Positions 33,382-63,998 of a stretch of 64,000 nt of DNA are shown piece after piece. Within the stretch, counting starts at the first letter, position 1. Each line of letters begins with the position of its first letter. The notes under the pieces are model-generated. The model was not told where the DNA came from and searched no databases. It saw only the letters and a program-made list of their open reading frames with translations. The DNA is from Arcobacter roscoffensis (GTDB lineage: Bacteria; Campylobacterota; Campylobacteria; Campylobacterales; Arcobacteraceae). Made by a program: the position numbers and the translations under genes. Location of the stretch: NCBI RefSeq assembly GCF_024267655.1, contig NZ_CP100595.1, forward strand, positions 1,550,001 to 1,614,000, read 5' to 3'.

Positions 33382-34356
33382 TTAAAAAAGTTCTATTGTA
33401 TCTTCTTCTGAGAGTTCAGCATAGTCAAAAAACTGACTCCTCCCATTATTTTTTGCTTCATATAAAGCAATATCAGCATTTTTTATAGCATCTGTAATTG
33501 TTTCACTAGAATCTGTTTTAAAAGTTTCAAGTCCTATGCAAATAGTTTTTTTCAAAGTTTGCTTTGTAATTGGATTAACTTCAATCTCTACTTTTGCAAA
33601 ACCTTCAATTATTTTTTTAGCAATATCTTCTATTTGCCATTTTGCTGTATTACTTAAAATAGTTACTAAAAATTCATCAGCATTAAGTCTAGCAACCATA
33701 TCAAATTCATTTATATTTGTATGGATTATTTTTGCAAGCTCTACTAAAACTTGATCTGAGATGTCATAATCAAATTCATCTATTACAGCTTTAAAATGAT
33801 CAACACCAATCATAAGAAAATATATCTCTTCTCTTGTATTATTTGAAATAGTAAGATGTTTATTTAAGTTTTCAATTAAATAGTTTCTATTATAAACTTT
33901 AGTAACTGAATCAATAGATGAAGACTCTATAAAGTTTTTCTTTAGAATACCATTTTGAATAATAGGTGAGATTTGAAAAAATGCAGCTTCAATAGTATCA
34001 TATTTAGCTTGCAGTACTTGATAGTGAACATTTGAAGTGGCACTAAAAGATACTGTTGCATTAAGATTAGTATGAGTATTTATAATAAAAAAGTAAGCTC
34101 TATCATCATCAAGATAGAATTCTTTCCCTTTTACTAAAATCTCTTCTTTTGTATTTGAGCTTATATCAATTAGAGAAAATGTTAGATTATCAACACAAAA
34201 AAATTTGTTTAACCAGTCATAAATATCTTCAGCCATTTGAACAATATTTGTTGAATACTGTAGTTGCTCGTATAAATTATAAATACTAACTAAAGATTTG
34301 TAGCTTTCTTCATTTTTCTTTGAGTCTTTTATTAGTTCTAAAATCTTCTCTTTCAT
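33382..34356 (-). CDS. GGDEF-like protein with degenerate active site (copy 2)
   Basis: This 324-residue cytoplasmic protein has an N-terminal ~140 residues resembling a GAF-like sensory region and a GGDEF fold from about 148 (SIDSVTKVYNRNYL ... NGRSQFFDYAE). The signature GGDEF is changed to NADEF (225-229), and the inhibitory-site R-x-x-D five residues before it is NEFD. Both the active site and the allosteric site therefore look lost. A diguanylate cyclase needs the two glycines to hold GTP, so catalysis is unlikely. It follows its paralogue (34367-35272) by 10 bp on the same strand, and the two share long identical segments (DEFDYDIGD-like, TKQTLKKT, ADIALYEAKN), showing tandem duplication. 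Confidence 0.88.
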   Translation of the reverse strand: MKEKILELIKDSKKNEESYKSLVSIYNLYEQLQYSTNIVQMAEDIYDWLNKFFCVDNLTFSLIDISSNTKEEILVKGKEFYLDDDRAYFFIINTHTNLNATVSFSATSNVHYQVLQAKYDTIEAAFFQISPIIQNGILKKNFIESSSIDSVTKVYNRNYLIENLNKHLTISNNTREEIYFLMIGVDHFKAVIDEFDYDISDQVLVELAKIIHTNINEFDMVARLNADEFLVTILSNTAKWQIEDIAKKIIEGFAKVEIEVNPITKQTLKKTICIGLETFKTDSSETITDAIKNADIALYEAKNNGRSQFFDYAELSEEDTIELF

Positions 34357-34366
34357 AATTTAAACC

Positions 34367-35272
34367 TTAAAATAAGTCAATTGTATTGGTATCTTCTTGT
34401 GTATACGTAAAAAATTGACTTCTACCTTTATTTTTTGCTTCATATAAAGCAATATCAGATTTTCTAAAAATTTCATCCATTGATGAAGCATCATCAGGGA
34501 AAATTGCTATACCACAACAAACTGTCTTTTTTAGAGTTTGCTTAGTTTGTTCGTTTACTAATACTTCTTTTTGTGCAAATGCTTCAATAATTTTTTGGGC
34601 TATCATTGAAGCATTTTCATTATCTTGAATGTTCATTAAAATTACTAAAAATTCATCTGAATCAATTCTTAAAATAATATCAGATGTTCTTAAAGTCTCT
34701 TTTAATACATCTGATAAAGCAATAAGTACTTTATCACCTATATTGTAATCAAACTCATCAATTACAGCTTTAAATTGATCAATACCAAATTTTAAAAAAC
34801 CTAAAGTATTTTTTTCTCTAATTGATAAACTTAATAATTTCTCTGCATAGTTTTCTAAATAGTGTCTATTATATAAACCTGTTAAACTATCAATCAAACT
34901 TAAATCTTTTAAAGTATCTTTTAAAAGCTTATTATATAGTGTCTGAGAAAAGGCTTGAAGAGCAAGATTAATCACAAATCTATTCTCAATTATATTTTTA
35001 TCGTCATTTGATGAAACTATAACTCTAATCTTTGTATATTCACTTTGAATTAATTCAAATACACAGTTCTCATGCTCTATTAGTTTATTTGAAGATTTGT
35101 AAAGAATATCTTCTCTATCCTCTTCGCTTGTATCAAGTAGAGTAATCTCAATATCATCAACATTGAATTTTGTTTTTAAATACTCTAATACTTCTACATA
35201 AAACTGTTCTAAAGTTCTTACAAGTTTTAAGTTTTCATTCTCATTTACTATATTTTCACAAACTTGACTCAT
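34367..35272 (-). CDS. GGDEF-like protein, degenerate A-site but intact I-site (copy 1)
   Basis: This 301-residue cytoplasmic protein has an N-terminal region (1-120) of unknown fold and a GGDEF domain from about 126. The signature is DSDEF (204-208), missing both glycines, but an RTSD motif at 195-198 lies exactly five residues before it, the position of the c-di-GMP inhibitory site. Proteins with this combination often serve as c-di-GMP receptors and not as cyclases; that is family knowledge applied here. It is the first gene of a tandem pair, 12 bp downstream of the MBL-fold hydrolase gene and probably in one operon with it. Confidence 0.88.
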   Translation of the reverse strand: MSQVCENIVNENENLKLVRTLEQFYVEVLEYLKTKFNVDDIEITLLDTSEEDREDILYKSSNKLIEHENCVFELIQSEYTKIRVIVSSNDDKNIIENRFVINLALQAFSQTLYNKLLKDTLKDLSLIDSLTGLYNRHYLENYAEKLLSLSIREKNTLGFLKFGIDQFKAVIDEFDYNIGDKVLIALSDVLKETLRTSDIILRIDSDEFLVILMNIQDNENASMIAQKIIEAFAQKEVLVNEQTKQTLKKTVCCGIAIFPDDASSMDEIFRKSDIALYEAKNKGRSQFFTYTQEDTNTIDLF

Positions 35273-35939: not shown

Positions 35940-36758
35940 GTGAATTATTTTTCTACATTAGAGCAGGTTTTATTAGCAAATAATCCAAAAGATAAGATTG
36001 AAAAGTTCAAATCTTTTTATAAAAACTTTATAAATAACAATTTTACTTTTGAAAAAGATTATATACCCTATGAACTTAAAGAGCCATCATATATAAGTTT
36101 TTTAAAGATTGTTAAACCAACATCTTTACCTAAAATAAAAAACTTTAAATCCATAGAAGGTAAACAATATTTATTACATACAATCTTACATATCGAATAT
36201 AGTGCAATTGATTTAGCACTTGATGCAGCACTTAGATACAAAGACTTACCCCTAGAATACTATAAAGATTGGTTAGAGGTTGCAGATGATGAGATTAGAC
36301 ATTTTTTAATGTTAGAGGAGTTACTAGCAGAAATAGGTGGTAAATATGGTGACTTTGCCGTGCATAAAAATTTATTTGAAGCTATGGAGACAACACCTGA
36401 ATTTTTAAGAAGAATGGCAGCAGTTCCAAGATATCTTGAAGCAAATGGTTTAGATCAAAATCCAAAAATAATGGAAAAGCTAAAATCAAATAATGATCCA
36501 TTTAATAGAAAAATACTTGATGTTTTAAATATTATTTTAGAAGAAGAAGTTGATCATGTAACAAAAGGCGATGTTTGGTTTAAATACGCATGTGATTTAG
36601 AAAATGTACCTTATGATTCTACTTATTTACAAATAATAGAAGAAGTTTTTCCAGGGTCAACAAAAAGAAAAATGGATTTAAACTTTGAAGCTAGAAAAAA
36701 AGCTGGCTTTTCTTGCGAACTTTTAAAAACTTTATCTAAAAAAGAAGATTGTAATTAA
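35940..36758 (+). CDS. DUF455 ferritin-like protein
   Basis: This 272-residue protein of the DUF455 family has a ferritin-like four-helix bundle. Probable di-iron ligands are visible: E in HIEYSAIDLALDA, E-x-x-H in DDEIRHFLMLEE and E-x-x-x-x-H in EEEVDHVTKGD. It starts at a GTG (35940), preceded by AAGAGG at normal distance; no ATG with a better site lies nearby. The cellular function of the family is not established; the metal site suggests redox or hydroxylase chemistry. Its stop codon lies inside the first Pho-box-like repeat of the downstream phn promoter region. Confidence 0.88.
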   Translation: MNYFSTLEQVLLANNPKDKIEKFKSFYKNFINNNFTFEKDYIPYELKEPSYISFLKIVKPTSLPKIKNFKSIEGKQYLLHTILHIEYSAIDLALDAALRYKDLPLEYYKDWLEVADDEIRHFLMLEELLAEIGGKYGDFAVHKNLFEAMETTPEFLRRMAAVPRYLEANGLDQNPKIMEKLKSNNDPFNRKILDVLNIILEEEVDHVTKGDVWFKYACDLENVPYDSTYLQIIEEVFPGSTKRKMDLNFEARKKAGFSCELLKTLSKKEDCN

Positions 36759-36770
36759 ACTGTAATTATC
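36749..36770 (+). promoter_or_regulatory. Pho-box-like direct repeat 1
   Basis: Two 11-bp units, TTGTAATTAAA and CTGTAATTATC, follow each other. They match the layout of E. coli Pho boxes (CTGTCATAAA-type 7+4 repeats) closely. The site overlaps the stop codon of the preceding gene. Confidence 0.6.
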
Positions 36771-36817
36771 TAATCTAACTACCATAAATACTGCTATTAA
36801 ACAAATTTAACTTTTAG

Positions 36818-36831
36818 CTTGTCTATACAAG
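36818..36831. promoter_or_regulatory. Candidate PhnF operator 1
   Basis: CTTGTCTATACAAG is an imperfect palindrome and the reverse complement of the second site (CTTGTATAGACAA). The TTGT-x-TA-x-ACAA layout fits operators of GntR/HutC-family repressors such as PhnF. Confidence 0.65.
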
Positions 36832-36839
36832 ACTTACAA

Positions 36840-36853
36840 CTTGTATAGACAAC
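36840..36853. promoter_or_regulatory. Candidate PhnF operator 2
   Basis: CTTGTATAGACAAC lies 22 bp from the first site, in the opposite orientation, and abuts the second Pho-box-like repeat. A repressor here would compete with a PhoB-type activator. Confidence 0.65.
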
Positions 36854-36874
36854 TTGTAATCATTGTGTAATTTA
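36854..36874 (+). promoter_or_regulatory. Pho-box-like direct repeat 2 at the -35 position
   Basis: TGTAAT occurs at 36855 and 36866, 11 bp apart, in the units TTGTAATCAT and TGTGTAATTTA. The repeat ends 7 bp before TATACT, the spacing seen in E. coli phoA, where the Pho box replaces the -35 element. Confidence 0.6.
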
Positions 36875-36881
36875 TGTGCTT

Positions 36882-36887
36882 TATACT
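36882..36887 (+). promoter_or_regulatory. Candidate -10 (TATACT) of the phn operon
   Basis: TATACT lies 7 bp downstream of the second Pho-box-like repeat and 12 bp before the third operator site. Transcription would start near 36894. Confidence 0.55.
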
Positions 36888-36899
36888 TCCAACATCAAG

Positions 36900-36913
36900 C
36901 TTGTGTAGACAAG
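36900..36913. promoter_or_regulatory. Candidate PhnF operator 3, at the transcription start
   Basis: CTTGTGTAGACAAG differs from site 2 by two bases and lies just downstream of the expected start point and 16 bp before the phnF start codon. Binding here would block RNA polymerase. Confidence 0.7.
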
Positions 36914-36929
36914 TTAAAAGGCAGTTAAA

Positions 36930-37652
36930 GTGAAGAAAGTTACAAAACCTACATATATAAAACTTTATGAACAAATATTAAAAAGTATTGAATCCAAAGA
37001 GTACAATGTAAGTGAAAAACTACCATCAGAAAATGAATTAGCTAAACAGTTTGATGTAAATAGACATACTGTAAGACAAGCTTTATCTTTATTAAAAGAC
37101 AAAGGGTTTATTTACACAAAAAGAGGAAAAGGAAACTTTATATCAAATATAAAAGTTCCTTATTCAATTACTGATAAAAGCTCTTACTCTTCAAAAATAT
37201 TAGATTTAGGTTACGAGCCAAAAACAAAACTTTTAAGTGCCAATATTGTTGAACCAAGCGAAGATGTAATAAATAACTTAGGATTAAGTAAGAAATTAAA
37301 AGTTATAGAGTTGAAACTTTTAAGATATGCAAATGATTTGCCTATTTCTGTTTCATATTCTTATTTTGATGCATTTATTTATAGAGAGATTATTAACAAC
37401 TTAGATATGGAGCCTTTCTCTTTATATAAAATTTTAAATAAATGTTATCCAAATTTAGAAATTAGGAAAGTTTCAACTGTATTTGAATCTTTAGTTTCAA
37501 CAAAAGAGTTTAGCAAACTACTCATGATGCCTTCAAATTCACCAATTTTAGCAGCTAGTACTTTATCAAAAGACCAAGATGGAAATTTTGTTGAATATGG
37601 AACATCATATTTTAGAGCCGATACTTGTAAAATCAAAGTAGATTTAATTTAA
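36930..37652 (+). CDS. phnF: PhnF, GntR/HutC-family repressor of the phn operon
   Basis: This 240-residue regulator has an N-terminal winged HTH (YEQILKSIESKEYNVSEKLPSENELAKQFDVNRHTVRQALSLL-type region, residues about 8-70) and a C-terminal UTRA ligand-binding domain (about 95-235). It is the first gene of the phosphonate operon and probably binds the three inverted repeats upstream of itself, giving autoregulation. The inducer in other PhnF proteins is not firmly known; a phosphonate or pathway intermediate is likely. It starts with GTG at 36930, with AAAAGG 8 bp upstream. phnC follows after 14 bp. Confidence 0.93.
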   Translation: MKKVTKPTYIKLYEQILKSIESKEYNVSEKLPSENELAKQFDVNRHTVRQALSLLKDKGFIYTKRGKGNFISNIKVPYSITDKSSYSSKILDLGYEPKTKLLSANIVEPSEDVINNLGLSKKLKVIELKLLRYANDLPISVSYSYFDAFIYREIINNLDMEPFSLYKILNKCYPNLEIRKVSTVFESLVSTKEFSKLLMMPSNSPILAASTLSKDQDGNFVEYGTSYFRADTCKIKVDLI

Positions 37653-37666
37653 TTAGGAGATTAATA

Positions 37667-38401
37667 GTGATAAAGATGAAAAACCTAACATTAGGTTATA
37701 AAAAAGAAGAAATCTTAAAAAATGTGGACTTTAAAGTAAAAGAGGGTGAATTTATTGGAATCATTGGACCTAGTGGTGCTGGTAAATCAACACTTTTAAT
37801 GTCAGTTACTGGTGGAATAAAAGTTTTTGATGGAAAGTTTGAAGTTTTAGATTTTGATTTAAATAATATCAAGAAAAAGAACTTAGTTAAATTAAGAGAA
37901 CAAGTTGGAGTTATTTTTCAAGGCTATAACCTAGTTGATAGAATTTCTGTACTTGATAATGTAATTAGTGGAATGTTAAAAGAAATCCCTCTAACAAGAG
38001 CAATAATAAAACTATATAAGAAAAAGGAGTTAAAAAAAGCAAAAGAGTATATGGACATTGTTGATATTACAAAACATTCGATGAAAAGGTGTGATGAACT
38101 TTCGGGAGGACAAAGACAAAGAGTTGCAATAGCTAGAGCTTTAGCCGCAGAACCAAAGATCATTTTAGCTGATGAACCTGTATCTGCTCTTGATCCAAAA
38201 AGTGCAAAAAAGGTTATGGAGATTTTAAGGAAGGTAAACAAAACTTACGGGGTAACTGTAATTGCGAACCTTCATCATTTAGAGTATGCCAAAGAGTATT
38301 GTGACCGAATCGTTGGAGTAAACGATGGTCAAGTTGTCTTTGACGATAAGAGTGAGTTGCTAACTGAAAAGTTAGTTGAAAAAATCTACACAAACAACTA
38401 G
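37667..38401 (+). CDS. phnC: PhnC, phosphonate ABC transporter ATPase
   Basis: This 244-residue ATPase energises uptake of phosphonates. Walker A is GPSGAGKST (residues about 34-42), the Q-loop is VGVIFQGYNLVDR, the signature is ELSGGQRQRVAIARAL and Walker B is IILADEPVSALDP, followed by a switch-like NLHHLEYA (His of the H-loop). PhnC members usually have this NLHH variant. The start is GTG at 37667, with AGGAGA 6 bp upstream; an ATG three codons later is possible. It is encoded between phnF and phnD and partners with PhnE and PhnD. Confidence 0.95.
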   Translation: MIKMKNLTLGYKKEEILKNVDFKVKEGEFIGIIGPSGAGKSTLLMSVTGGIKVFDGKFEVLDFDLNNIKKKNLVKLREQVGVIFQGYNLVDRISVLDNVISGMLKEIPLTRAIIKLYKKKELKKAKEYMDIVDITKHSMKRCDELSGGQRQRVAIARALAAEPKIILADEPVSALDPKSAKKVMEILRKVNKTYGVTVIANLHHLEYAKEYCDRIVGVNDGQVVFDDKSELLTEKLVEKIYTNN

Positions 38402-38431
38402 TGTAAAACAAAAATTAAATTAGGAAATAAA

Positions 38432-39295
38432 ATGAAATTAATTAAAAAACTTACAGTAGCTTCTATAGCTTTAGGATTAGCATCAACATCAATGTTTGCA
38501 CAAGAAAAATGGCCAGAAAAAATTACTTTTGGTGTAATACCTGTAGCTGGTTCAACTTCTATGAAAGAAAACTTCGGACCTTTAACTGATTATTTATCAA
38601 AATCATTAGGTATTAAAGTTGAGATGAAATTAGCTGGAGATTACACAGGTGTAATTACAGGAATGCAACATAAACATATTGATGTAGCTTATTTAGGACC
38701 AAAATCTTATGTTGAAGCTGCAAAAAGAGCTAATGCTGAAGCTTTAGTTGTAGAAGTTGATGGGGAATCAGGGCTTCCAGGATATAGAGGTACGATTATT
38801 ACTAAAAAAGGAAGCGGCTTAAAAAGTTTAGCTGACTTAAAAGGTAAAACTTGGGCATTCACATCATCTCAATCTACATCAGGAACTTTAGTTCCAACAG
38901 TGATGTTCTCAAAAGCTGGAATTAACCCTCAAGAATATTTTTCTAAAGTAGTTTATTCAGGTGGTCATGAGGCTTCTATTTTAACAGTAAAAGCTGGAAG
39001 AATTGATGCAGCTTCTACTAATAATTTAGATTTTAATAGAGGATTAGGAAAACACTGGGAAAAAGATCAATTTAATGTTATCTGGACTTCAGATTTAATT
39101 CCAGGAGCTCCTGTTGCTGCAAGAGCTGATTTACCAACATCACTTAAAATGGCTTTAAAAGGTGCATTTTTATCTTACAACGACCCTAAAGGTTTAGAAA
39201 AACTAAAAAACAAAGGTTTTGTTAAAGGTGATGACTCTGTTTATGATTCTGTAAGAGAATTAATCGAACTAAAAAATAAGTTAAAAAATAAATAA
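38432..39295 (+). CDS. phnD: PhnD, phosphonate-binding periplasmic protein
   Basis: This 287-residue exported binding protein has a signal peptide (residues 1-23, ending in SMFA before QEKWPEK). The mature part has the type-2 periplasmic fold with the family blocks ITFGVIPVAGSTSMKENFGPL, TGMQHKHIDVAYLGPKSYVEA, GKTWAFTSSQSTSGTLVPTVMF and VYSGGHEASILTVKAG. The first Ser/Thr-rich block and the SQSTSG loop form the phosphonate pocket in known PhnD proteins. A stable hairpin follows the gene at 39303-39325, which probably raises the phnD message level over the downstream genes. Confidence 0.95.
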   Translation: MKLIKKLTVASIALGLASTSMFAQEKWPEKITFGVIPVAGSTSMKENFGPLTDYLSKSLGIKVEMKLAGDYTGVITGMQHKHIDVAYLGPKSYVEAAKRANAEALVVEVDGESGLPGYRGTIITKKGSGLKSLADLKGKTWAFTSSQSTSGTLVPTVMFSKAGINPQEYFSKVVYSGGHEASILTVKAGRIDAASTNNLDFNRGLGKHWEKDQFNVIWTSDLIPGAPVAARADLPTSLKMALKGAFLSYNDPKGLEKLKNKGFVKGDDSVYDSVRELIELKNKLKNK

Positions 39296-39302
39296 TTAAA
39301 AA

Positions 39303-39325
39303 AAGTAAGCGTTCTACGCTTACTT
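39303..39325 (+). promoter_or_regulatory. Intercistronic hairpin between phnD and phnE
   Basis: AAGTAAGCG and CGCTTACTT form a perfect 9-bp stem around TTCTA. There is no T-run after it, so it should protect the 3' end of the phnD message and not fully terminate. Confidence 0.7.
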
Positions 39326-39341
39326 AAATAAGGATAATAAA

Positions 39342-40199
39342 ATGAATGTAGAAGAGCTAAAAGCTAAAAGTAGTCCCTTTTCTTTTGGGAAATCAGCAGT
39401 AATTGTAATTTTTTTACTTGTTCTAATTCAAAGTTGGAATGACACAGAAATGAGTTTTTCTTCACTTTATGAGGGTGCTGGTTATATGTCTGAGTATATT
39501 GCTGGTAATCCAAGTATTGAAGGAAGTGGATTTTTCCCACCAAATTTAAATAGTGCTGATTTAATGGTTTATGTATGGTCAATGATAGAGACTATTCAAA
39601 TGGCAGTTGTTGCATTGTTTATATCTATAGTAGTGGCAGTTCCATTATCATATATGAGTTCAAGAAATATCTTAAATATTTTAATTCCAGGTAAAACTCC
39701 AATTCATGAGTTCATAAAAAAAGTGATATATGGAAGTGCTACCTTTGTTGCAAATGTTTTTAGATCAATCAATGAAATTGTATGGGCATTGATTTTTGTA
39801 AGTGCAGTTGGTCTTGGACCAATGGCAGGTATTTTAGCATTAGGTGTGCATACAGCAGGTGTTTTATCAAAGCTTTTAAGTGAGGGAAATGAGTCAATAG
39901 ACCCAGGTCCGGTAGAAGCTTTAACTACAACAGGTGCTGGATTTTTTAAAGTATTAGTTTATGCGGTTATCCCACAAACAATGCCTCATTTTGTTTCTAT
40001 GGCTTTATATAGATTTGAAAGTGATGTAAGAGCAGCTTCAATTCTTGGATTTGTTGGTGCTGGTGGTATTGGTTTTTATCTGTTCGACAAGATGAGAGCT
40101 TTTGAAAATGGTGATGTATGTTCAATCATTATCATTATTGTTTTAACTGTTTGGATACTTGACAAAATTAGTGCAATGATTAGAAAAAGGTTTATTTAA
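39342..40199 (+). CDS. phnE: PhnE, phosphonate ABC transporter permease
   Basis: This 285-residue inner-membrane permease has about six TM segments: one near 16-32, then SMIETIQMAVVALFISIVVAVPLSYMSS, a segment near 138-165, VSMALYRFES, and a C-terminal one. The EAA loop is visible as EALTTTGAGFFKVLVYAVIPQ, the contact site for PhnC. The gene starts at an ATG with AAGGATAAT upstream and its stop overlaps the start of phnG by one base (TAATG at 40197-40201). A single permease gene is present, so the transporter is probably a PhnE homodimer. Confidence 0.94.
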   Translation: MNVEELKAKSSPFSFGKSAVIVIFLLVLIQSWNDTEMSFSSLYEGAGYMSEYIAGNPSIEGSGFFPPNLNSADLMVYVWSMIETIQMAVVALFISIVVAVPLSYMSSRNILNILIPGKTPIHEFIKKVIYGSATFVANVFRSINEIVWALIFVSAVGLGPMAGILALGVHTAGVLSKLLSEGNESIDPGPVEALTTTGAGFFKVLVYAVIPQTMPHFVSMALYRFESDVRAASILGFVGAGGIGFYLFDKMRAFENGDVCSIIIIIVLTVWILDKISAMIRKRFI

Positions 40200-40612
40200 T
40201 GAAAAGAGAAGATATTAATAATTTAGCACAATTAGTGCAATTAGAAAAATTAGAAAAATTATATAAAGAGATTGATAAAGACAATAAGGTTCAAGTTTTA
40301 ACACCTCCTACAGAGCAAACACTTTTAGTTCCTGTAAGAGATCCTATTTCAAATAGTGATTTTTATGCAGGAGAGGTATTAGTAACTTCTACTATTGTAC
40401 AAGTAAATGATACTAAAGGTTGGTCGATGGTTATGGATACAAATGAGAGTTTATCTCTTTATACAGCAGTTATTGATGCTGCTTTTGAAGCAGATATTTT
40501 TAAAGAGAAAATAGTAACTATTTTAGAAGAAGCAAAGAGTCAAGATAGTTTAAATAAAGAGAAAATAAATCAAAAAGTAAACGCTACTAGAGTTTCTTTT
40601 GATTTAATGTAA
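40199..40612 (+). CDS. phnG: PhnG, C-P lyase complex subunit
   Basis: This 137-residue subunit of the carbon-phosphorus lyase core complex (PhnGHIJ) helps form the ribose-1-triphosphonate intermediate. Family features include LLVPVRDPISNSDFYAGEVLVTSTIVQVNDTKGWSMVMD, the conserved centre of PhnG, and a helical C-terminus. It overlaps phnE by one base and precedes phnH by 11 bp. The order phnG-H-I-J-K-L-M is the standard one. Confidence 0.93.
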   Translation: MKREDINNLAQLVQLEKLEKLYKEIDKDNKVQVLTPPTEQTLLVPVRDPISNSDFYAGEVLVTSTIVQVNDTKGWSMVMDTNESLSLYTAVIDAAFEADIFKEKIVTILEEAKSQDSLNKEKINQKVNATRVSFDLM

Positions 40613-40623
40613 GGGAATATTAG

Positions 40624-41160
40624 ATGAATACTGTTGATATAGAAAAACTAAATAGAGATAACTTTAAATCAATGATGAATGCTTTATCAATGCCAGGTAA
40701 GATTGAGAAAATTCAACCTTTATTTGAATCAAATTTGTTGGCAATTGCAAACACACTTTTATACTCAGAAGTTAGCTTTTATTATGAAGGGAATGAAGAG
40801 TTTAATTTAATTGAAGCAATTACAAATTCACAAAATGATCAAGCTGATAATGCAGATTATATTTTTTGTGATGAACTAAATGAGTATTTATTCAATAAAG
40901 GAAAAGTTGGAACATCAAAAGACCCTGAATACTCTTCTACATTTGTTTTTAAGTGTAAAGATTTTAATGGCTTAGAAGTTAAATTGACAGGACCGGGAAT
41001 AGATGGAAGTAAAAAGGTTAACTTACCAATTGACAAATCTTTTGTTGAGTTTTTTAATGAAAAGAACTCTTACTATCCACTTGGAAATGAAGTATTCTTT
41101 TTAAGTCAAGAAGGCGAGATTACAGCAATTTCAAGAACTACAAAAATGGAGGTTTTATAA
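40624..41160 (+). CDS. phnH: PhnH, C-P lyase complex subunit
   Basis: This 178-residue subunit of the C-P lyase core is recognised by the N-terminal FKSMMNALSMPGKIEKI and by KLTGPGIDGSKKVNL (about 120-135), the typical PhnH motif with GPGI. It has the pyridoxal-transferase-like fold of the family without cofactor. It is slightly shorter than E. coli PhnH (194). It sits between phnG and phnI, one base from phnI. Confidence 0.93.
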   Translation: MNTVDIEKLNRDNFKSMMNALSMPGKIEKIQPLFESNLLAIANTLLYSEVSFYYEGNEEFNLIEAITNSQNDQADNADYIFCDELNEYLFNKGKVGTSKDPEYSSTFVFKCKDFNGLEVKLTGPGIDGSKKVNLPIDKSFVEFFNEKNSYYPLGNEVFFLSQEGEITAISRTTKMEVL

Positions 41161-41161
41161 A

Positions 41162-42238
41162 ATGGCTTATTATGCAATAAAAGGTGGAGAAGAAGCTATT
41201 AAAAACTCTCTTGATTTTTATGGTGATATTACAAAAGAATCAGAAAAGTTAGATGATAAAGATTTAATTGAGGGTTTAACTTATTCTATTGATAGAGTAA
41301 TTAGTGAAGGGTCTTTATATACTAAAAAATTAGCAGCACAAGCTATAAAAAGAAGTGCAGGGGATTTACTTAATGCCTCATTTTTCTTAAGAGCTCATAG
41401 AAGTTCTTGTCAAAGAATTGGAATTGCTAAAACTGTTGATATAAATGATATGAGATTAACAAGAAGAATTTCATCAGCGTTTAAAGACATTGAAGGTGGT
41501 CAATTACTTGGGCCTTCAAATGATTATGAAATTAAACTTTTAGTTGATTTAGAAAATATCGAAACAAATATTGAAGAGTATTCTACAAAAGATAATATTA
41601 TCAAATCAGCAATGTCCCCTTTAAGAGAAGATAATCTTATCAAAATCCTTCCAAAAGAAGATAAGCCTTGGGATATTACTAGAAGTTATCCAACTGAGCC
41701 TTATCCAAGAAGTGCTGTTTTACAAGTAATGGCAAGAGCTGAAACAGGTTCTCTTTTATGTGTTGGATATACAACGATGAGAGGTTATGGTGATATTCAC
41801 CCAACAATTGGTGATTTGAGAATTGGTGAGCTTGATATTGAGTTTACTCATCCATTTACAAAAAATGAAGTTAAAGTTGGAAGTATTGAAGCCACTGCTG
41901 TTGAATGTGTAGGTACATTTAATCAAGATGAAGATGGAGATACAAAACTTACAACAGGTTTTGGTTTTTGTTTTGGAAAAAATGAAACAAAAGCTATTTC
42001 TATGTCTATGATAGATTTATCACTTTACAATACTCACTATTCTGTGGGTGGTGAACATATTATTGCAGCTGATTTTGACATGATTATGCACCACTTAGAT
42101 GGGATTGAGTCATTTGGTATGACAAATCACTTTAAATTACCACACTATGTGACATTCCAAACTGATTATCAAATCTTTAAATCAGCACAAAAATATACAG
42201 ATGATAAGAAAGAAGAAGAAAAAGGACTTGCAAAATGA
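41162..42238 (+). CDS. phnI: PhnI, C-P lyase nucleosidase subunit
   Basis: This 358-residue subunit displaces adenine from ATP with phosphonate together with PhnG, PhnH and PhnL. The family start AYYAIKGGEEAIKNS, the block LRAHRSSCQRIGIAKTVDINDMRLTRRISSAF, and MARAETGSLLCVGYTTMRGYGDIHPTIGDLR are all present. Its stop overlaps the phnJ start (ATGA, 42235-42238). The length matches E. coli PhnI (354). Nothing is missing. Confidence 0.95.
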   Translation: MAYYAIKGGEEAIKNSLDFYGDITKESEKLDDKDLIEGLTYSIDRVISEGSLYTKKLAAQAIKRSAGDLLNASFFLRAHRSSCQRIGIAKTVDINDMRLTRRISSAFKDIEGGQLLGPSNDYEIKLLVDLENIETNIEEYSTKDNIIKSAMSPLREDNLIKILPKEDKPWDITRSYPTEPYPRSAVLQVMARAETGSLLCVGYTTMRGYGDIHPTIGDLRIGELDIEFTHPFTKNEVKVGSIEATAVECVGTFNQDEDGDTKLTTGFGFCFGKNETKAISMSMIDLSLYNTHYSVGGEHIIAADFDMIMHHLDGIESFGMTNHFKLPHYVTFQTDYQIFKSAQKYTDDKKEEEKGLAK

Positions 42239-43065
42239 GATATGCATTTTTAGATGAAGAAGCAAAAAAAGAGATTAGAAGATCTATTTTAAAAGCTATT
42301 GCAATTCCTGGATATATTGTAGGTTTTGCATCAAGAGAACTTCCAGTTGCTCGTGGTTGGGGTACTGGTGGATTACAAGTAACACTTGCGATAATAAATG
42401 AAGAAGATACTTTAAAAGTAATTGACCAAGGTTGTGATGGAAGTGTAAATGCTGTAAATATTAGAAATTTTATTAAATCAGTTACAAAAGTTAATACAAC
42501 AACTAAAACACTTGATGCAAGTATAATTCAAACAAGACACAGAGTTCCTGAGATTGACTTACAAGAAGGTCAAACTTTAGTTTATCAAGTACCAATGCCT
42601 GATATTTTAGAAACTGTTGAGCCAAATATATCAAAAGCTAAGCTTTTACATGCAAATGCAGACTACTCTAAGTTATGGGTTTTATTATATGAAGATACAT
42701 CAATGTATGGAGATTCAAGAATATCAAATAGATATCCTGTAATGGTAAATGATAGATATGCAATGGATCCAAGTCCAATTCCAAAATATGATACACCAAA
42801 GCTTAATGATTGCAAAGCTTTACAACTTTTTGGAGCAGGAAGGGAAAAAAAGATTTATGCTATTCCTCCTTATACAAAAGTAGAGCCTTTAAAATTTGAA
42901 GATAGAGAGTTTAAAGTAGAGAACTTTGATGGAAAAGCTTGTGCTAGATGTGGAAGTGTTCATAGCTTCTTAGATGAAGTTTATGATGATGAGGGTAAAG
43001 CAACATATTATTGTAATGATACAGATTATTGTGATACGCAAAAAGAAAAACAAGGAAATAACTAA
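42235..43065 (+). CDS. phnJ: PhnJ, radical SAM carbon-phosphorus lyase
   Basis: This 276-residue catalytic subunit cleaves the C-P bond of 5-phosphoribosyl-1-phosphonate to the alkane and a cyclic ribose phosphate. It is an atypical radical SAM protein whose cluster cysteines lie near the C-terminus. Here they are in CARCGS (about 237-240) and CNDTDYCD (about 262-268). The glycine that carries the protein radical lies in the conserved early region (IPGYIVGFASRELPVARGWGTGGL). With methylphosphonate as substrate the product would be methane. It overlaps phnI by 4 bp and phnK by 1 bp. Confidence 0.96.
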   Translation: MRYAFLDEEAKKEIRRSILKAIAIPGYIVGFASRELPVARGWGTGGLQVTLAIINEEDTLKVIDQGCDGSVNAVNIRNFIKSVTKVNTTTKTLDASIIQTRHRVPEIDLQEGQTLVYQVPMPDILETVEPNISKAKLLHANADYSKLWVLLYEDTSMYGDSRISNRYPVMVNDRYAMDPSPIPKYDTPKLNDCKALQLFGAGREKKIYAIPPYTKVEPLKFEDREFKVENFDGKACARCGSVHSFLDEVYDDEGKATYYCNDTDYCDTQKEKQGNN

Positions 43066-43901
43066 TGATACTAGATATGAGAAATGTCTCTAAGGTTTTT
43101 GGAAAATTTTGTCCAAAATGTTTAGAAACAACAGGCGCAGATTTTAATAGCTCTATTTGTCCTACTTGTAAAAGTGTTGTTGGGGTTAATGATGTAAATT
43201 TAACACTTGCAAACGGAGAGGTTTTAGGAATAGTTGGTGAAAGTGGTAGTGGTAAATCAACACTTTTACAATTAATATATCAAGACCAAAAAGCCTCACT
43301 TGGTGAGATTTTTGTAAGAGATTTTGTAGGAAGAGATGGAAAAAGAAAAAATATTTTAGATGCAAATTTAAATGAACTATCTTTTTTGCGAAACTCTTTA
43401 ATGTCAATGATTTATCAAAACCCAAGACTAGGGCTTAACTATAACTTTTCAGCAGGTGGAAACATAGCTGAAAAAGTTATCATGAGTGGAAATAAAAAAT
43501 ATGATGAGATTAGAGATAGAGCCTTATACTTTTTAGATAAAACTGAGATTCCTACAAGTAGAATTGATGCTTATCCTGAATACTTTTCAGGTGGACAACA
43601 ACAAAGAATTCAAATTTCTAAAGCCTTATCAAGTAATCCAAAAATCTTATTACTTGATGAGCCAACAACTGGTCTTGATTTATCAGTTCAAGCAAAGATT
43701 CTTGATTTAATCAAAGAATTACAGCATGAAATTGGTTTTGCCATGGTAGTTGTATCACATGATTTAGGAGTTATAAAACACTTAACAGATATTACAGTTG
43801 TTATGAAAAATGGACAAATAGTTGAAAGAGGATTAACAGATCAAATCTTAGAAGATCCTCAGCACCCATATACACAGTTATTAGTTTCATCAATACTTTA
43901 A
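43065..43901 (+). CDS. phnK: PhnK, C-P lyase-associated ATPase with Cys4 insertion
   Basis: This 278-residue ABC-type ATPase binds the C-P lyase core. Walker A is GESGSGKST, the signature FSGGQQQRIQIS and Walker B ILLLDEPTTGLD. The N-terminus carries an extra segment with C16-x2-C19 and C32-x2-C35 between the first strand and the VNDVNLTL strand. It looks like a small zinc or iron-sulphur knuckle and is absent from E. coli PhnK (252 residues). The length difference is explained by this insert plus small loops. It overlaps phnJ by one base. Confidence 0.94.
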   Translation: MILDMRNVSKVFGKFCPKCLETTGADFNSSICPTCKSVVGVNDVNLTLANGEVLGIVGESGSGKSTLLQLIYQDQKASLGEIFVRDFVGRDGKRKNILDANLNELSFLRNSLMSMIYQNPRLGLNYNFSAGGNIAEKVIMSGNKKYDEIRDRALYFLDKTEIPTSRIDAYPEYFSGGQQQRIQISKALSSNPKILLLDEPTTGLDLSVQAKILDLIKELQHEIGFAMVVVSHDLGVIKHLTDITVVMKNGQIVERGLTDQILEDPQHPYTQLLVSSIL

Positions 43902-43913
43902 GGATAAAAAGAA

Positions 43914-44603
43914 ATGACACGATTAGAAGTAAAAGATTTAGATAAAACTTTTAAAGTACATACTCAAGGAAGTATTGAAGTTAAGGGTTTCGAAAATATT
44001 GGTTTTGATGTTAAACAAGGTGAGTTTTTATCACTTTTTGGTCCAAGTGGAGCAGGTAAGTCATCAATCTTAAAAACATTATTTAGAACATATACTACTA
44101 CAAAAGGGAATATTGTATTTCATAGAGATAATGGAAATAAGATTGATATTGCAACTGCAACTGAGAGTGAGATTTTAGAGCTTAGAAAGTCTGAAATCGG
44201 TTATGTATCACAGTTTTTACAAATATTACCAAGAATTAGTGCAGTTGATGTTGTAGCTCAACAGCTAATAGTAAAAGGTGAAAGTGAAGAAGTATCAAGA
44301 AACAAAGCAAAAGAAATGTTAGATTATTTATCTATTAGAGAAGAGCTATTTGACTTGTCACCATTGACTTTTTCAGGTGGTGAGCAACAAAGAGTAAATA
44401 TCGCAAAAGGTATTATTGCTCCCAAAAGCTTGCTTTTACTTGATGAACCAACTGCTTCACTGGATAAAACAAATACTATGAAAGTAGTAGAGAAGTTAAA
44501 AGAACTAAAAACACAAGGTGTTGCAATGGTTGGGATTTTTCACGACCTTGAAGCAATGGAAATGATAAGTGATAAGATTTATAAATTAGAGAGAGTTCAA
44601 TAA
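43914..44603 (+). CDS. phnL: PhnL, C-P lyase-associated ATPase
   Basis: This 229-residue ABC-type ATPase is required with PhnG, PhnH and PhnI for the first step of phosphonate activation. It has Walker A GPSGAGKSS, the Q-loop segment IGYVSQFLQILPRISAVDVVAQ (hallmark of PhnL), signature TFSGGEQQRVNIAKGI and Walker B LLLLDEPTASLD. Its stop codon overlaps the start of phnM (TAATG). E. coli PhnL has nearly the same length (226). Confidence 0.95.
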   Translation: MTRLEVKDLDKTFKVHTQGSIEVKGFENIGFDVKQGEFLSLFGPSGAGKSSILKTLFRTYTTTKGNIVFHRDNGNKIDIATATESEILELRKSEIGYVSQFLQILPRISAVDVVAQQLIVKGESEEVSRNKAKEMLDYLSIREELFDLSPLTFSGGEQQRVNIAKGIIAPKSLLLLDEPTASLDKTNTMKVVEKLKELKTQGVAMVGIFHDLEAMEMISDKIYKLERVQ

Positions 44604-45742
44604 TGGAAACAATTTTAAGAAGTAAAAATGTATTAATAAACGAAGAGTTTGTTCCTGCTGATGTGGTAATAAAAGGTGAATTTATAGAAAGAATTGATGA
44701 GTATGAAAAAAATGAAGTAGCAGTTGATTTAGGTGATAAAAAAATTGCTCCTGGTATTGTAGATTTACACTCAGATGCTATTGAAAAAGAGATTGAACCA
44801 AGACATGGGGCTACTTTTCCAGTAGAACTTGCTGTTGCTGAACTTGATAAAAAGCTATCAATGGCAGGTGTTACAACAATGTTTCATGCTATTGGTTTTG
44901 AAGAAAATCCAAAGAAAAAAAGAAGTATTGATTTAGCAATATCTCAAATAGAAGAGATTAACAAAGCAAATGACAAACACTTGGGAGTTGATAACTATGT
45001 TCATGCAAGATTTGAGTTAAGTTGTGATGAAGCAGTTGAGCCTATCAAAGAAGTAATCTCAAAAGGTATGGTAAAACTTGTTTCTCTTATGGATCACTCA
45101 CCTGGGCAAGGTCAATTTAAATCTTTAGAGTCTTTCAAAACTTACTATAGTGCTTATTATGGCTTAGATGATAATGAGGTTCAAGAAGTAGTTGATAAAA
45201 AATTAAACAAAAATGAAGATAAGATTAATGATTTAATTTCTTTTACAAAAAAACATGACTTAACACTTTTAAGCCATGATGATGATTGTATTGAGAAACT
45301 TGATGGACTACTTAATTTAGGTGTTCAAATTTCTGAATTCCCACTTGATTTAGAAGTAGCAAAATATGCTGTTTCAAATGGAATTGCAACAGGTATGGGA
45401 GCTCCAAATATTGTAAGAGGTGGATCTCAAAGTGGTAATATTGCAGCTATTGAACTGGTAAAAGAGGGTGTTTGTAAGTATCTTTGTTCTGATTACCACC
45501 CAACATCTATGCTTCAAGCAGTATATAGAATGAAAGAAGATGCAAATCTTGATATAGCAAAAGGTTTCTCAATGGTAACTTCAACTCCTGCAGCATACGC
45601 TAACTTAGAGGATAGAGGTGAGATAAAGGAAGGAAAAAGAGCTGATATTATTGTAGTTGATGATACACATATCCCAAAAGTAGTGCTTACTTTAAAAGAT
45701 GGTGATTCAATTTACAATGGCATTAGAGGCTTTAAATTATAA
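44603..45742 (+). CDS. phnM: PhnM, ribose-triphosphonate pyrophosphohydrolase
   Basis: This 379-residue amidohydrolase-superfamily enzyme removes pyrophosphate from 5-triphosphoribosyl-1-phosphonate to give the substrate of PhnJ. Metal-site motifs are VDLHSDAIE near residue 50, with the PhnM-typical EIEPRHGATFP right after it, SLMDHSPGQGQ at about 155, LLSHDDD at about 215 and CSDYHPTSML at about 295. All metal ligands are present. It is encoded directly after phnL. A 55-bp gap with a tiny open frame separates it from the acyltransferase gene. Confidence 0.95.
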   Translation: METILRSKNVLINEEFVPADVVIKGEFIERIDEYEKNEVAVDLGDKKIAPGIVDLHSDAIEKEIEPRHGATFPVELAVAELDKKLSMAGVTTMFHAIGFEENPKKKRSIDLAISQIEEINKANDKHLGVDNYVHARFELSCDEAVEPIKEVISKGMVKLVSLMDHSPGQGQFKSLESFKTYYSAYYGLDDNEVQEVVDKKLNKNEDKINDLISFTKKHDLTLLSHDDDCIEKLDGLLNLGVQISEFPLDLEVAKYAVSNGIATGMGAPNIVRGGSQSGNIAAIELVKEGVCKYLCSDYHPTSMLQAVYRMKEDANLDIAKGFSMVTSTPAAYANLEDRGEIKEGKRADIIVVDDTHIPKVVLTLKDGDSIYNGIRGFKL

Positions 45743-45797
45743 GGATTAAAAATGGTTACAATTTATAGAAGTATTTTACACCTAGAGGTTAAATACA

Positions 45798-46436
45798 ATG
45801 ACAAAAATAGAAAATCATAATCCTGAACCAAAGGTAGTATTAGGGAGAAAACCATTTATTTTCCCTAATGCGATTATTGAAAACTGTGAATTTGGCGAAT
45901 ATACGGAGATTAGAGATTTTGTAAACATCACCCATTCTTCAATGGATGACTATTCTTATGTATGTGAATATTCTCAAATTACCAACACTACTATAGGTAA
46001 ATTTGCAAATATCGCTTCAAATGTGCGAATAAACCCAGGGTTTCACCCTTATGAAATGCCTTGTCAACACCACTTTATGTACAGAAGAGAAATGTATGGT
46101 TTTGGTGATGATGATAAAGCATTTTTTAACTATAGAGACATGCAAAAAGTAAACATAGGTCATGATGTTTGGATAGGTCATGGGGCTGTTATTATGCCAG
46201 GAGTTAAGATAGGAAATGGTGCAATTATTGGATCAAATGCTGTTGTAACCAAAGATGTACCCTCATATGCTATAGTAGCAGGTGTAAGTGCTAAAGTACT
46301 TAAGTATAGATTCTCAAAAGATATAATAAAAGCATTAGAGGAAATCTCATGGTGGGATTGGACTCATGATGAGATAAAAGAGCAAATTGAAGACTTAAAA
46401 GATATTAGAGAGTTTATATATAAATATTCAAAATAA
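45798..46436 (+). CDS. Hexapeptide-repeat acyltransferase of phosphonate metabolism
   Basis: This 212-residue left-handed beta-helix transferase is of the type often found in phn operons (TIGR03308-like). Hexapeptide repeats run from about 22 to 75 and 118 to 160 (VNIGHDVWIGHGAVIMPGVKIGNGAIIGSNAVV), with the catalytic-type His of GHGAVI and the HHFMYRREMYGFGDDD loop of the family. It probably acetylates an amino-phosphonate, either to prime it or to detoxify it, a job done by PhnO in E. coli; this is inference. It is encoded 9 bp before phnN. Confidence 0.88.
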   Translation: MTKIENHNPEPKVVLGRKPFIFPNAIIENCEFGEYTEIRDFVNITHSSMDDYSYVCEYSQITNTTIGKFANIASNVRINPGFHPYEMPCQHHFMYRREMYGFGDDDKAFFNYRDMQKVNIGHDVWIGHGAVIMPGVKIGNGAIIGSNAVVTKDVPSYAIVAGVSAKVLKYRFSKDIIKALEEISWWDWTHDEIKEQIEDLKDIREFIYKYSK

Positions 46437-46445
46437 GAAGGTTAC

Positions 46446-46976
46446 ATGGATACAAAAATAGTTTTAATAGTAGGACCAAGTGGAGTTGGTAAAGACACTT
46501 TGTTGAAAAGTGCAAGAAAAGAGTTAAAAGGTGAAGTTAATTTCGTAAGAAGATATATAACTAGAAAGCCTGATAAAAACGAAAAAAACTATTTCCTTGA
46601 TGATTTTGCATTTGAGATATTAAAACATAATAGTTTTTTTGCCTCAACTTGGAATGCTCATGGAAACTACTATGGCATTGCTAAAAATTCTATTAAAAAC
46701 AAGGTAAATGTTATCTCTATTTCAAGATCAAAGATTTCTGATTTTGAAAAATTGTATGATAAGGTTTACACTATTAATATAACTGTTCCTAAAGAAGAGT
46801 TAAGAAATAGACTATTACTAAGAAAAAGAGAATCAATTGAAGAGATTGAGAAAAGACTAAATAGAAGTTATGAAAAAATTGAAGCTAAAAAATTGATTGA
46901 GTTTGACAATAGTAAAGATATTGAGGAAAGCTCAAAAGAGTTTATAAATTTAATAAAAAAGTTATCACTTGAATAA
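46446..46976 (+). CDS. phnN: PhnN, ribose 1,5-bisphosphate phosphokinase
   Basis: This 176-residue P-loop kinase related to guanylate kinase converts ribose 1,5-bisphosphate to PRPP, closing the C-P lyase route. Walker A is GPSGVGKDT (residues about 10-18). VRRYITRKP and FASTWNAHGNYYGI match the substrate-binding blocks of PhnN. Its end overlaps the start of the EEP-family gene by 8 bp. Its presence together with phnP shows that the full route to PRPP is encoded here. Confidence 0.93.
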   Translation: MDTKIVLIVGPSGVGKDTLLKSARKELKGEVNFVRRYITRKPDKNEKNYFLDDFAFEILKHNSFFASTWNAHGNYYGIAKNSIKNKVNVISISRSKISDFEKLYDKVYTINITVPKEELRNRLLLRKRESIEEIEKRLNRSYEKIEAKKLIEFDNSKDIEESSKEFINLIKKLSLE

Positions 46977-63337: not shown

Positions 63338-63998
63338 TTATTTTAAACCCCATTCCTCTTACTGTTTTAATAAGTTTTTTCTCAAAAGGTTTGTCTATTT
63401 TATTTCTTAATCTATAAATATATACATTTATGATATTACTTATATTACTATCTTCCATATTACTTAATGAAGATAAAATAACACTTTCCGATAAGACCTT
63501 ATTTTTGTTTCTAACTAAATATTCTAGTAAAGAAAACTCCTTAGCTGTTAATTCTATTTTTTTACCCGCTCTTTGTATATTTTTTGTTAGTAAATCAAGT
63601 TGTAAATCATCAATAGCAAGTAAAGTTGTTTGAGTTTCAGTCTTAAGTCTTAATTGAACTCTAATTCGAGCTAAAAGTTCATTAAAAGAAAAAGGTTTAG
63701 GAAGATAATCATTAGCACCAATATCAAGACCTTTTATCGTATCTTCTGTGCTATTTTTTGCAGTAAGCATAATAATTGGGGTGTTAATATTTTGTGTTCT
63801 TAATGTTTTACAAACTTCAATGCCATCTTTTATAGGAAGCATTATATCAAGCAATATCACATCATAATCATTTACAGAAGCTAAGTAAATTCCTTCTTCG
63901 CCATCTAAACAATAATCAACACTATAAGACTCTTCTTCAAGACCTTTTTTCAAAAAATTTACTATTTTTATATCATCTTCAACTATTAAAACTTTCAT
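63327..63998 (-). CDS. OmpR-family response regulator
   Basis: This 223-residue DNA-binding regulator has a receiver at 1-120 (E7-D8-D9, phosphoacceptor D50 in VILLDIMLP, T79 in MLTAK, K101 in PKPFSF) and a winged-helix DNA-binding domain at about 130-222 (ELTAKEFSLLEYLVRNKNKVLS, VYIYRLRNKID, RGMGFKI). All phosphotransfer residues are present. It is the first gene of the operon with the sensor kinase and the HD-GYP protein. The ATG at 63996-63998 is two bases from the window edge, so its promoter is not visible. Confidence 0.95.
   Translation of the reverse strand: MKVLIVEDDIKIVNFLKKGLEEESYSVDYCLDGEEGIYLASVNDYDVILLDIMLPIKDGIEVCKTLRTQNINTPIIMLTAKNSTEDTIKGLDIGANDYLPKPFSFNELLARIRVQLRLKTETQTTLLAIDDLQLDLLTKNIQRAGKKIELTAKEFSLLEYLVRNKNKVLSESVILSSLSNMEDSNISNIINVYIYRLRNKIDKPFEKKLIKTVRGMGFKISDD

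Follow-up and report, generated by a model that had tools for sequence, protein, structure and literature searches.

The phn locus

The window analyzed here is a 64-kb stretch (positions 1550001–1614000) of a 3.15-Mb, probably Arcobacteraceae-like genome that consists of a single contig. It contains an operon for a C–P lyase, an enzyme able to release methane from methylphosphonate. The operon is opened by phnF (36930..37652, + strand), which encodes a GntR/HutC-family regulator with a UTRA domain. On the same strand follow phnC, D, E, G, H, I, J, K, L and M (37667..45742), recognized by matches to TIGR02315, TIGR03431, TIGR01097, TIGR03292, PF05861 and PF06007, with phnG, phnK, phnL and phnM assigned from gene order together with weaker or family-level matches. 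The operon also includes genes for a hexapeptide acetyltransferase and a phnN-like kinase (45798..46976, + strand; Pfam matches and a phnN orthologue search), and beyond the latter more genes extend as far as a PhnP-like gene of the beta-lactamase fold. The upstream neighbor of the phn promoter is a DUF455 gene (35940–36758 in the list of open reading frames). Two similar tandem GGDEF-type genes are present on the minus strand upstream of the phn region (33382-35272).

Between phnM and the acetyltransferase gene there is a 22-aa open frame, MVTIYRSILHLEVKYNDKNRKS (45752-45820, + strand). It is kept in eight relatives (MVTIYRSILH...), where several codons differ at the third position, and a frame of this type is the first one behind the Pho-box promoter of phnN in genomes that lack phnF (L161, L163, L164, L165). 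The frame possibly encodes an undescribed small protein or a leader peptide.

The phnF product contains a GntR winged helix (PF00392, 63.2 bits) and a UTRA effector domain (PF07702, 84.6 bits). Its top NCBIfam match was TIGR02325 (PhnF), with a score of 140.2 bits that lies below the cut-off of 156.8 and places the protein outside the equivalog. We therefore name it PhnF-like because of its operon context, that is, a gene inside a phn operon with the palindromes in its promoter, and not because of TIGR02325 membership; it is called PhnF below in this sense. A search of the genome with the window PhnF gave one match only at E <= 0.001.

Elements of the phn promoter

Three PhnF-type palindromes lie upstream of phnF, exactly where the preliminary description had placed three inverted repeats: op1 at 36818..36831 (CTTGTCTATACAAG), op2 at 36840..36853 (CTTGTATAGACAAC, with one edge mismatch) and op3 at 36900..36913 (CTTGTGTAGACAAG), none of them assigned to a strand. 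The center of op1 is 22 bp, or about two turns, upstream of that of op2. These are the sole palindromes with at most one mismatch in the 64 kb, where 0.30 would be expected in all, and none of 100 shuffles reached three. The three palindromes are clearly non-random. The 12-bp core TTGTNTANACAA has 7 copies in the 3.15-Mb genome, 3 of which are found within 95 bp in the phn promoter, and a genome search with the core pattern detected no other cluster. A looser operator pattern with 2 mismatches proved useless for finding a PhnF regulon, since its 244 matches, against 155 for the control, were near background.

One base pair downstream of op2, an 11-bp direct repeat, TGTAATCATTGTGTAAT, was found at 36855..36871 (+ strand). 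Its TGTAAT half-sites begin at 36855 and 36866 (TGTAAT-N5-TGTAAT), and a -10 hexamer, TATACT (36882..36887, + strand), follows 10 bp after the repeat; the 7 bp given for this gap in the preliminary description was a miscount. The arrangement is that of a Pho box, with two direct half-sites of 11-bp period that end about 10 bp short of the -10 and replace the -35 element. By convention, a transcription start was predicted from the -10 at about 36894. Relative to it, op3 covers about +7 to +20 and is thus downstream of the predicted start point, which it had been thought to overlap.

Allowing one mismatch, a bare TGTAAT pair has 3 matches in the window against 2.0 expected, and the Pho box plus -10 is expected 0.5 times in the window if 2 mismatches are allowed. 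The bare pair is not rare, and the Pho-box claim therefore needed independent testing. A matrix of the half-sites and the -10, with the spacers left out, was trained solely on pstS promoters of other genomes. It ranked the site at 36855 first on both strands of the window (score 20.8; next 16.4), and the maximum in 100 simulated windows, 19.7, was below this score. A 33-bp matrix from whole pstS promoters had been too specific: the spacers of these orthologous promoters outweighed the rest, and the phn site was missed. The half-site matrix was adopted after this failure had been seen and is somewhat weaker as a test for it; an exact consensus search and the conservation described below stand apart from the matrix. 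The TGTAAT pair is significant only together with its exact spacing, the -10 and the independent training.

The preliminary description had listed two Pho-box-like repeats, TGTAAT pairs spaced 11 bp apart at 36750/36761 and at 36855/36866. Both pairs are present, and for the second the reading as a Pho box stood, as it ranks first with the matrix and is conserved. The first pair (36750..36766, + strand), considered as an upstream secondary Pho box, was rejected. It scored 3.2 (rank 17) as compared to 20.8 for 36855, has no -10 at the right distance, is unconserved and overlaps a coding region. The TGTAAT at 36750–36755 codes for the final two residues (Cys-Asn) of the DUF455 protein and is common to relatives, and the relatives compared lack the copy at 36761. 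The first pair is best regarded as a product of chance.

Pho boxes elsewhere in the genome

The preliminary description had proposed to search the genome for a PhoB/PhosR-like regulator and for the same 11-bp repeats before pst genes, and both were found. The pst region comprises pstS, an EAL/GGDEF-type gene, pstC, pstA, pstB and phoU as well as genes for a response regulator of OmpR type and a histidine kinase. The promoters of pstS (AGTAACCAAAATGTAAC-CTACTCATAT-TATACT) and pstC (TGTAACCATTGTGTAAC-CATCTTTAAT-TATAAT), each with an N10 spacer, have the same 11-bp period and 10-bp gap as the phn promoter (TGTAATCATTGTGTAAT-TTATGTGCTT-TATACT). In the whole genome, GTAAYCNNNNTGTAAY-N10-TANANT has only three exact matches, which are those of pstC, pstS and phn. 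The matches with one mismatch include some that adjoin genes for a PHO4 phosphate transporter, a PhoX-family protein, an acyltransferase/GNAT protein and arsB, the kind of genes to be expected in a phosphate regulon. The match beside the PHO4 gene, which lies across the start of the longest frame and has the opposite orientation, is the weakest of the one-mismatch sites named. The distance from the box to the -10 was 10 bp in all 13 pstS promoters examined, including that of this genome.

The pst-linked regulator scored 175.9 bits on the PhoB model TIGR02154, below the equivalog cut-off of 296.2, and two other regulators of the genome score slightly above it. From its linkage to pst, we infer that the pst-linked regulator is the one that acts at the phn Pho box. 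An OmpR/PhoB-like response regulator with 176.9 bits, against 175.9 for the pst-linked one, is encoded in the window at 63339-63995 (- strand). As a separate observation, the position of the EAL/GGDEF-type gene between pstS and pstC (L075 6902-8635, - strand) suggests that phosphate starvation is linked to cyclic-di-GMP.

Conservation in relatives

Two groups of promoters were compared. The first consists of 18 orthologous phnF promoters, including that of the window, and the other PhnF proteins in this group are 55–80% identical to the window PhnF. The second consists of 7 promoters of a second PhnF type, which is about 30% identical and belongs to a second line of C–P lyase operons. An op2 with at most one mismatch was found 0–1 bp from a Pho box in all 25 phnF promoters. 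In each of the 18 orthologous promoters, the gap is exactly 1 bp from op2 to the Pho box and exactly 10 bp from the box to the -10, and the adjacency of operator and Pho box is seen in 7/7 promoters of the second type with a gap of 0 or 1 bp. The preliminary description had made its proposal depend on conservation of the repeats before the phn operons of relatives, and this conservation was confirmed for the 36855 box (18/18 orthologous promoters) and not for the 36750 pair.

The other two operators are less constant. In 15 of the 18 orthologous promoters, an op3 with at most one mismatch follows the -10 at 12–13 bp, which puts it 60–61 bp from op2; the remaining 3 lack op3. A complete op1 occurs in this genome only; at the 22-bp offset, 14 of the 18 have their best op1-like match, which is mostly a half-site (the right half, CTATACAAG-like). 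The mean information per base was 1.6–1.8 bits in op2, both half-sites and the -10, in contrast to 0.16 bits in the upstream flank and 0.3 bits at the one base that separates op2 from the Pho box.

The composite motif (at most 2 mismatches) was found in 10 of 397 genomes of the phylum. Eight of these are phnF promoters, one is a remnant without phnF and one is a 2-mismatch match inside an open frame; except for the latter, all matches are within the Arcobacteraceae-like family. A reversed control pattern had two matches in the same 397 genomes, and a viral collection contained no exact copy of the motif. In three genomes (G060, G034 and G072), one operator is located exactly between two mirrored, divergent Pho boxes (L138 8742, L139 9142, L140 8497), of which one faces phnF and the other a gene that, judged by sequence only, is aldo/keto-reductase-like.

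Several relatives retain phnN without this phnF or a C–P lyase and serve as a natural control. In G055, G062 and G063, the phnN promoter has retained TGTAATC-N4-TGTAAT-N10-TATA(C/A)T. In G061, it reads TGTAATTAGTTTGTAAT-N10-TATAAT. The first half-site there coincides with the final two codons of the DUF455 gene, as though the operators had been lost through a deletion between two TGTAAT copies. The end of the DUF455 gene can thus serve as half of a Pho box, about 122 bp before phnN (L164). No intact operator was detected before phnN in any of these four genomes; G055 has an op2 with two mismatches and no op3. Four other genomes (G077, G078, G081, G082) have neither a Pho box nor an operator before phnN. 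The presence of the operators thus tracks that of phnF, unlike the presence of the Pho box, which is the pattern expected if two different proteins read the two elements. This control comprises four genomes of one genus, which may not represent independent events.

Proposed control of the operon

We consider it probable, at roughly four chances in five, that the phnF-led C–P lyase operon has its main promoter at 36818-36913 and that this promoter works as an AND gate, with activation by a PhoB/PhosR-type protein and repression by PhnF. At low phosphate, the regulator of the pst operon would bind to 36855-36871, which stands in for a -35 element, and recruit RNA polymerase to TATACT. PhnF would bind to op2, abutting the Pho box, and to op3, just past the start; it would also bind to op1, though less strongly in most relatives. 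Given a start at about 36894, the centers of op1, op2 and op3 would be near −70, −48 and +13. PhnF at op3 could then block initiation or escape, and PhnF at op2 the activator or the polymerase, while the two turns between op1 and op2 would allow side-by-side binding. PhnF would also curb its own synthesis, since phnF is the first gene and the circuit is autoregulatory. A ligand of the UTRA domain, probably a phosphonate or a C–P lyase intermediate, would free the promoter, so that expression would require phosphate starvation and the PhnF ligand.

The preliminary description had already proposed dual Pho-box/PhnF control, and the comparative evidence supports it strongly: boxes before pst genes, a pst-linked regulator and kinase, a layout of Pho box and operators whose spacing and conservation are evident from sequence and comparison, and loss of the operators with phnF. 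Actual binding, repression by PhnF, the nature of its ligand and the start site are what we infer from this evidence. The AND logic would hold for a PhnF ligand that is either a phosphonate or an intermediate of phosphonate breakdown. The preliminary description had named a phosphonate as the releasing signal; the ligand could also be a pathway intermediate or phosphate itself. It is conceivable, though we advance it tentatively, that op2 and the Pho box form a composite element. PhnF would then serve chiefly as an anti-activator, through competition or direct contact with the PhoB/PhosR protein next to it. Such an element could be the reason why the 0-1-bp spacing has been kept over long divergence and why the boxes are mirrored in G060, G034 and G072.

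The choice of ligand matters for the most serious alternative, in which PhnF senses phosphate or a general metabolite of phosphorus status, both regulators report phosphate starvation and the AND gate is only apparent. The DNA layout would fit this equally well, and according to a review PhnF of Mycobacterium smegmatis represses phnDCE, an operon for a phosphate (not phosphonate) transporter that is induced by phosphate limitation (PMC7866108). We nevertheless regard it as rather unlikely: phnF here heads a full C–P lyase operon, and where the C–P lyase genes have been lost, phnF and the operators have been lost too, while the Pho box stays. Moreover, starvation was not enough for phnJ expression in Nodularia, which also needed a suitable phosphonate (PMC5955973); with the comparison confined to expression, this is a precedent for the AND logic and not for this promoter.

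Two further explanations concern the repeats themselves. TTGTAAT and TTGTGTAA look like left operator halves (operator TTGTNTANACAA) and the repeat is directly 3' of op2, which might suggest degenerate PhnF half-sites and a promoter under PhnF alone. We consider this very improbable, because the same repeat with the same -10 spacing precedes pstS, pstC and orphan phnN genes that lack an intact PhnF operator, and because the repeat is direct and not palindromic. Still less credible is a chance occurrence in an AT-rich intergenic region. A one-mismatch TGTAAT pair is indeed expected about twice per 64 kb, and chance does describe the 36750 pair. For 36818-36913, conservation already refutes this explanation, with exact spacing and sequence in the 18 orthologous promoters against an unconserved flank (1.6-1.8 versus 0.16 bits), and the pstS-trained matrix ranked 36855 first.

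Comparison with known systems

The Pho consensus of E. coli has the half-site TGTCAT, a period of 11 bp and a gap of 10 bp to the -10. The half-sites here are TGTAAT, whereas period and gap are alike. The phnCDEFGHIJKLMNOP genes of E. coli are likewise a C–P lyase operon under a Pho box, which is located before phnC and mediates activation by PhoB (PMC7866108, PMC10574752). The E. coli phnF takes fourth place after the phnC promoter, whereas here phnF comes first and its operators flank the Pho box and the -10.

The PhnF operator of M. smegmatis, which we take to be TGGTATAGACCA, resembles TTGTATAGACAA here. The GntR-family PhnF of this species represses phnDCE and has two sites in the promoter region, so that PhnF with promoter sites and an operon induced by phosphate limitation are found there as well (PMC7866108). 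In contrast to the present locus, phnF is divergently transcribed, a C–P lyase is missing and phosphate is transported, and the portion of the description available to us mentions no operator abutting the box of an activator.

In C. jejuni, which belongs to the same phylum as this genome, the PhosR box is presumably GTTTCNAAAANGTTTC, with the half-site GTTTC and the same shape as GTAACCAAAATGTAAC here, where the half-site is GTAAY. The two-component system PhosS/PhosR controls the pst genes (PMC9449129, PMC3197622), and its regulon has been described as mostly phosphate uptake genes, with no mention of a phn operon (PMC9449129).

Each part of the arrangement is thus already known separately. 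In the literature searched, outside of which most subscription journals fall, we found no description of an abutting, spacing-conserved pair of operator and Pho box before a phnF-led C–P lyase operon; the publications found treat the E. coli operon mainly via its Pho box, and the action of PhnF in C–P lyase operons has been little tested. The phn promoter described here renders this action testable. Our analysis also defines a Pho box for this Arcobacteraceae-like family of Campylobacterota and places C–P lyase in the Pho regulon of the family. The promoter is compact, with phosphate starvation and substrate sensing predicted to meet at abutting sites, and the phnF-less genomes provide natural "mutants" of it.
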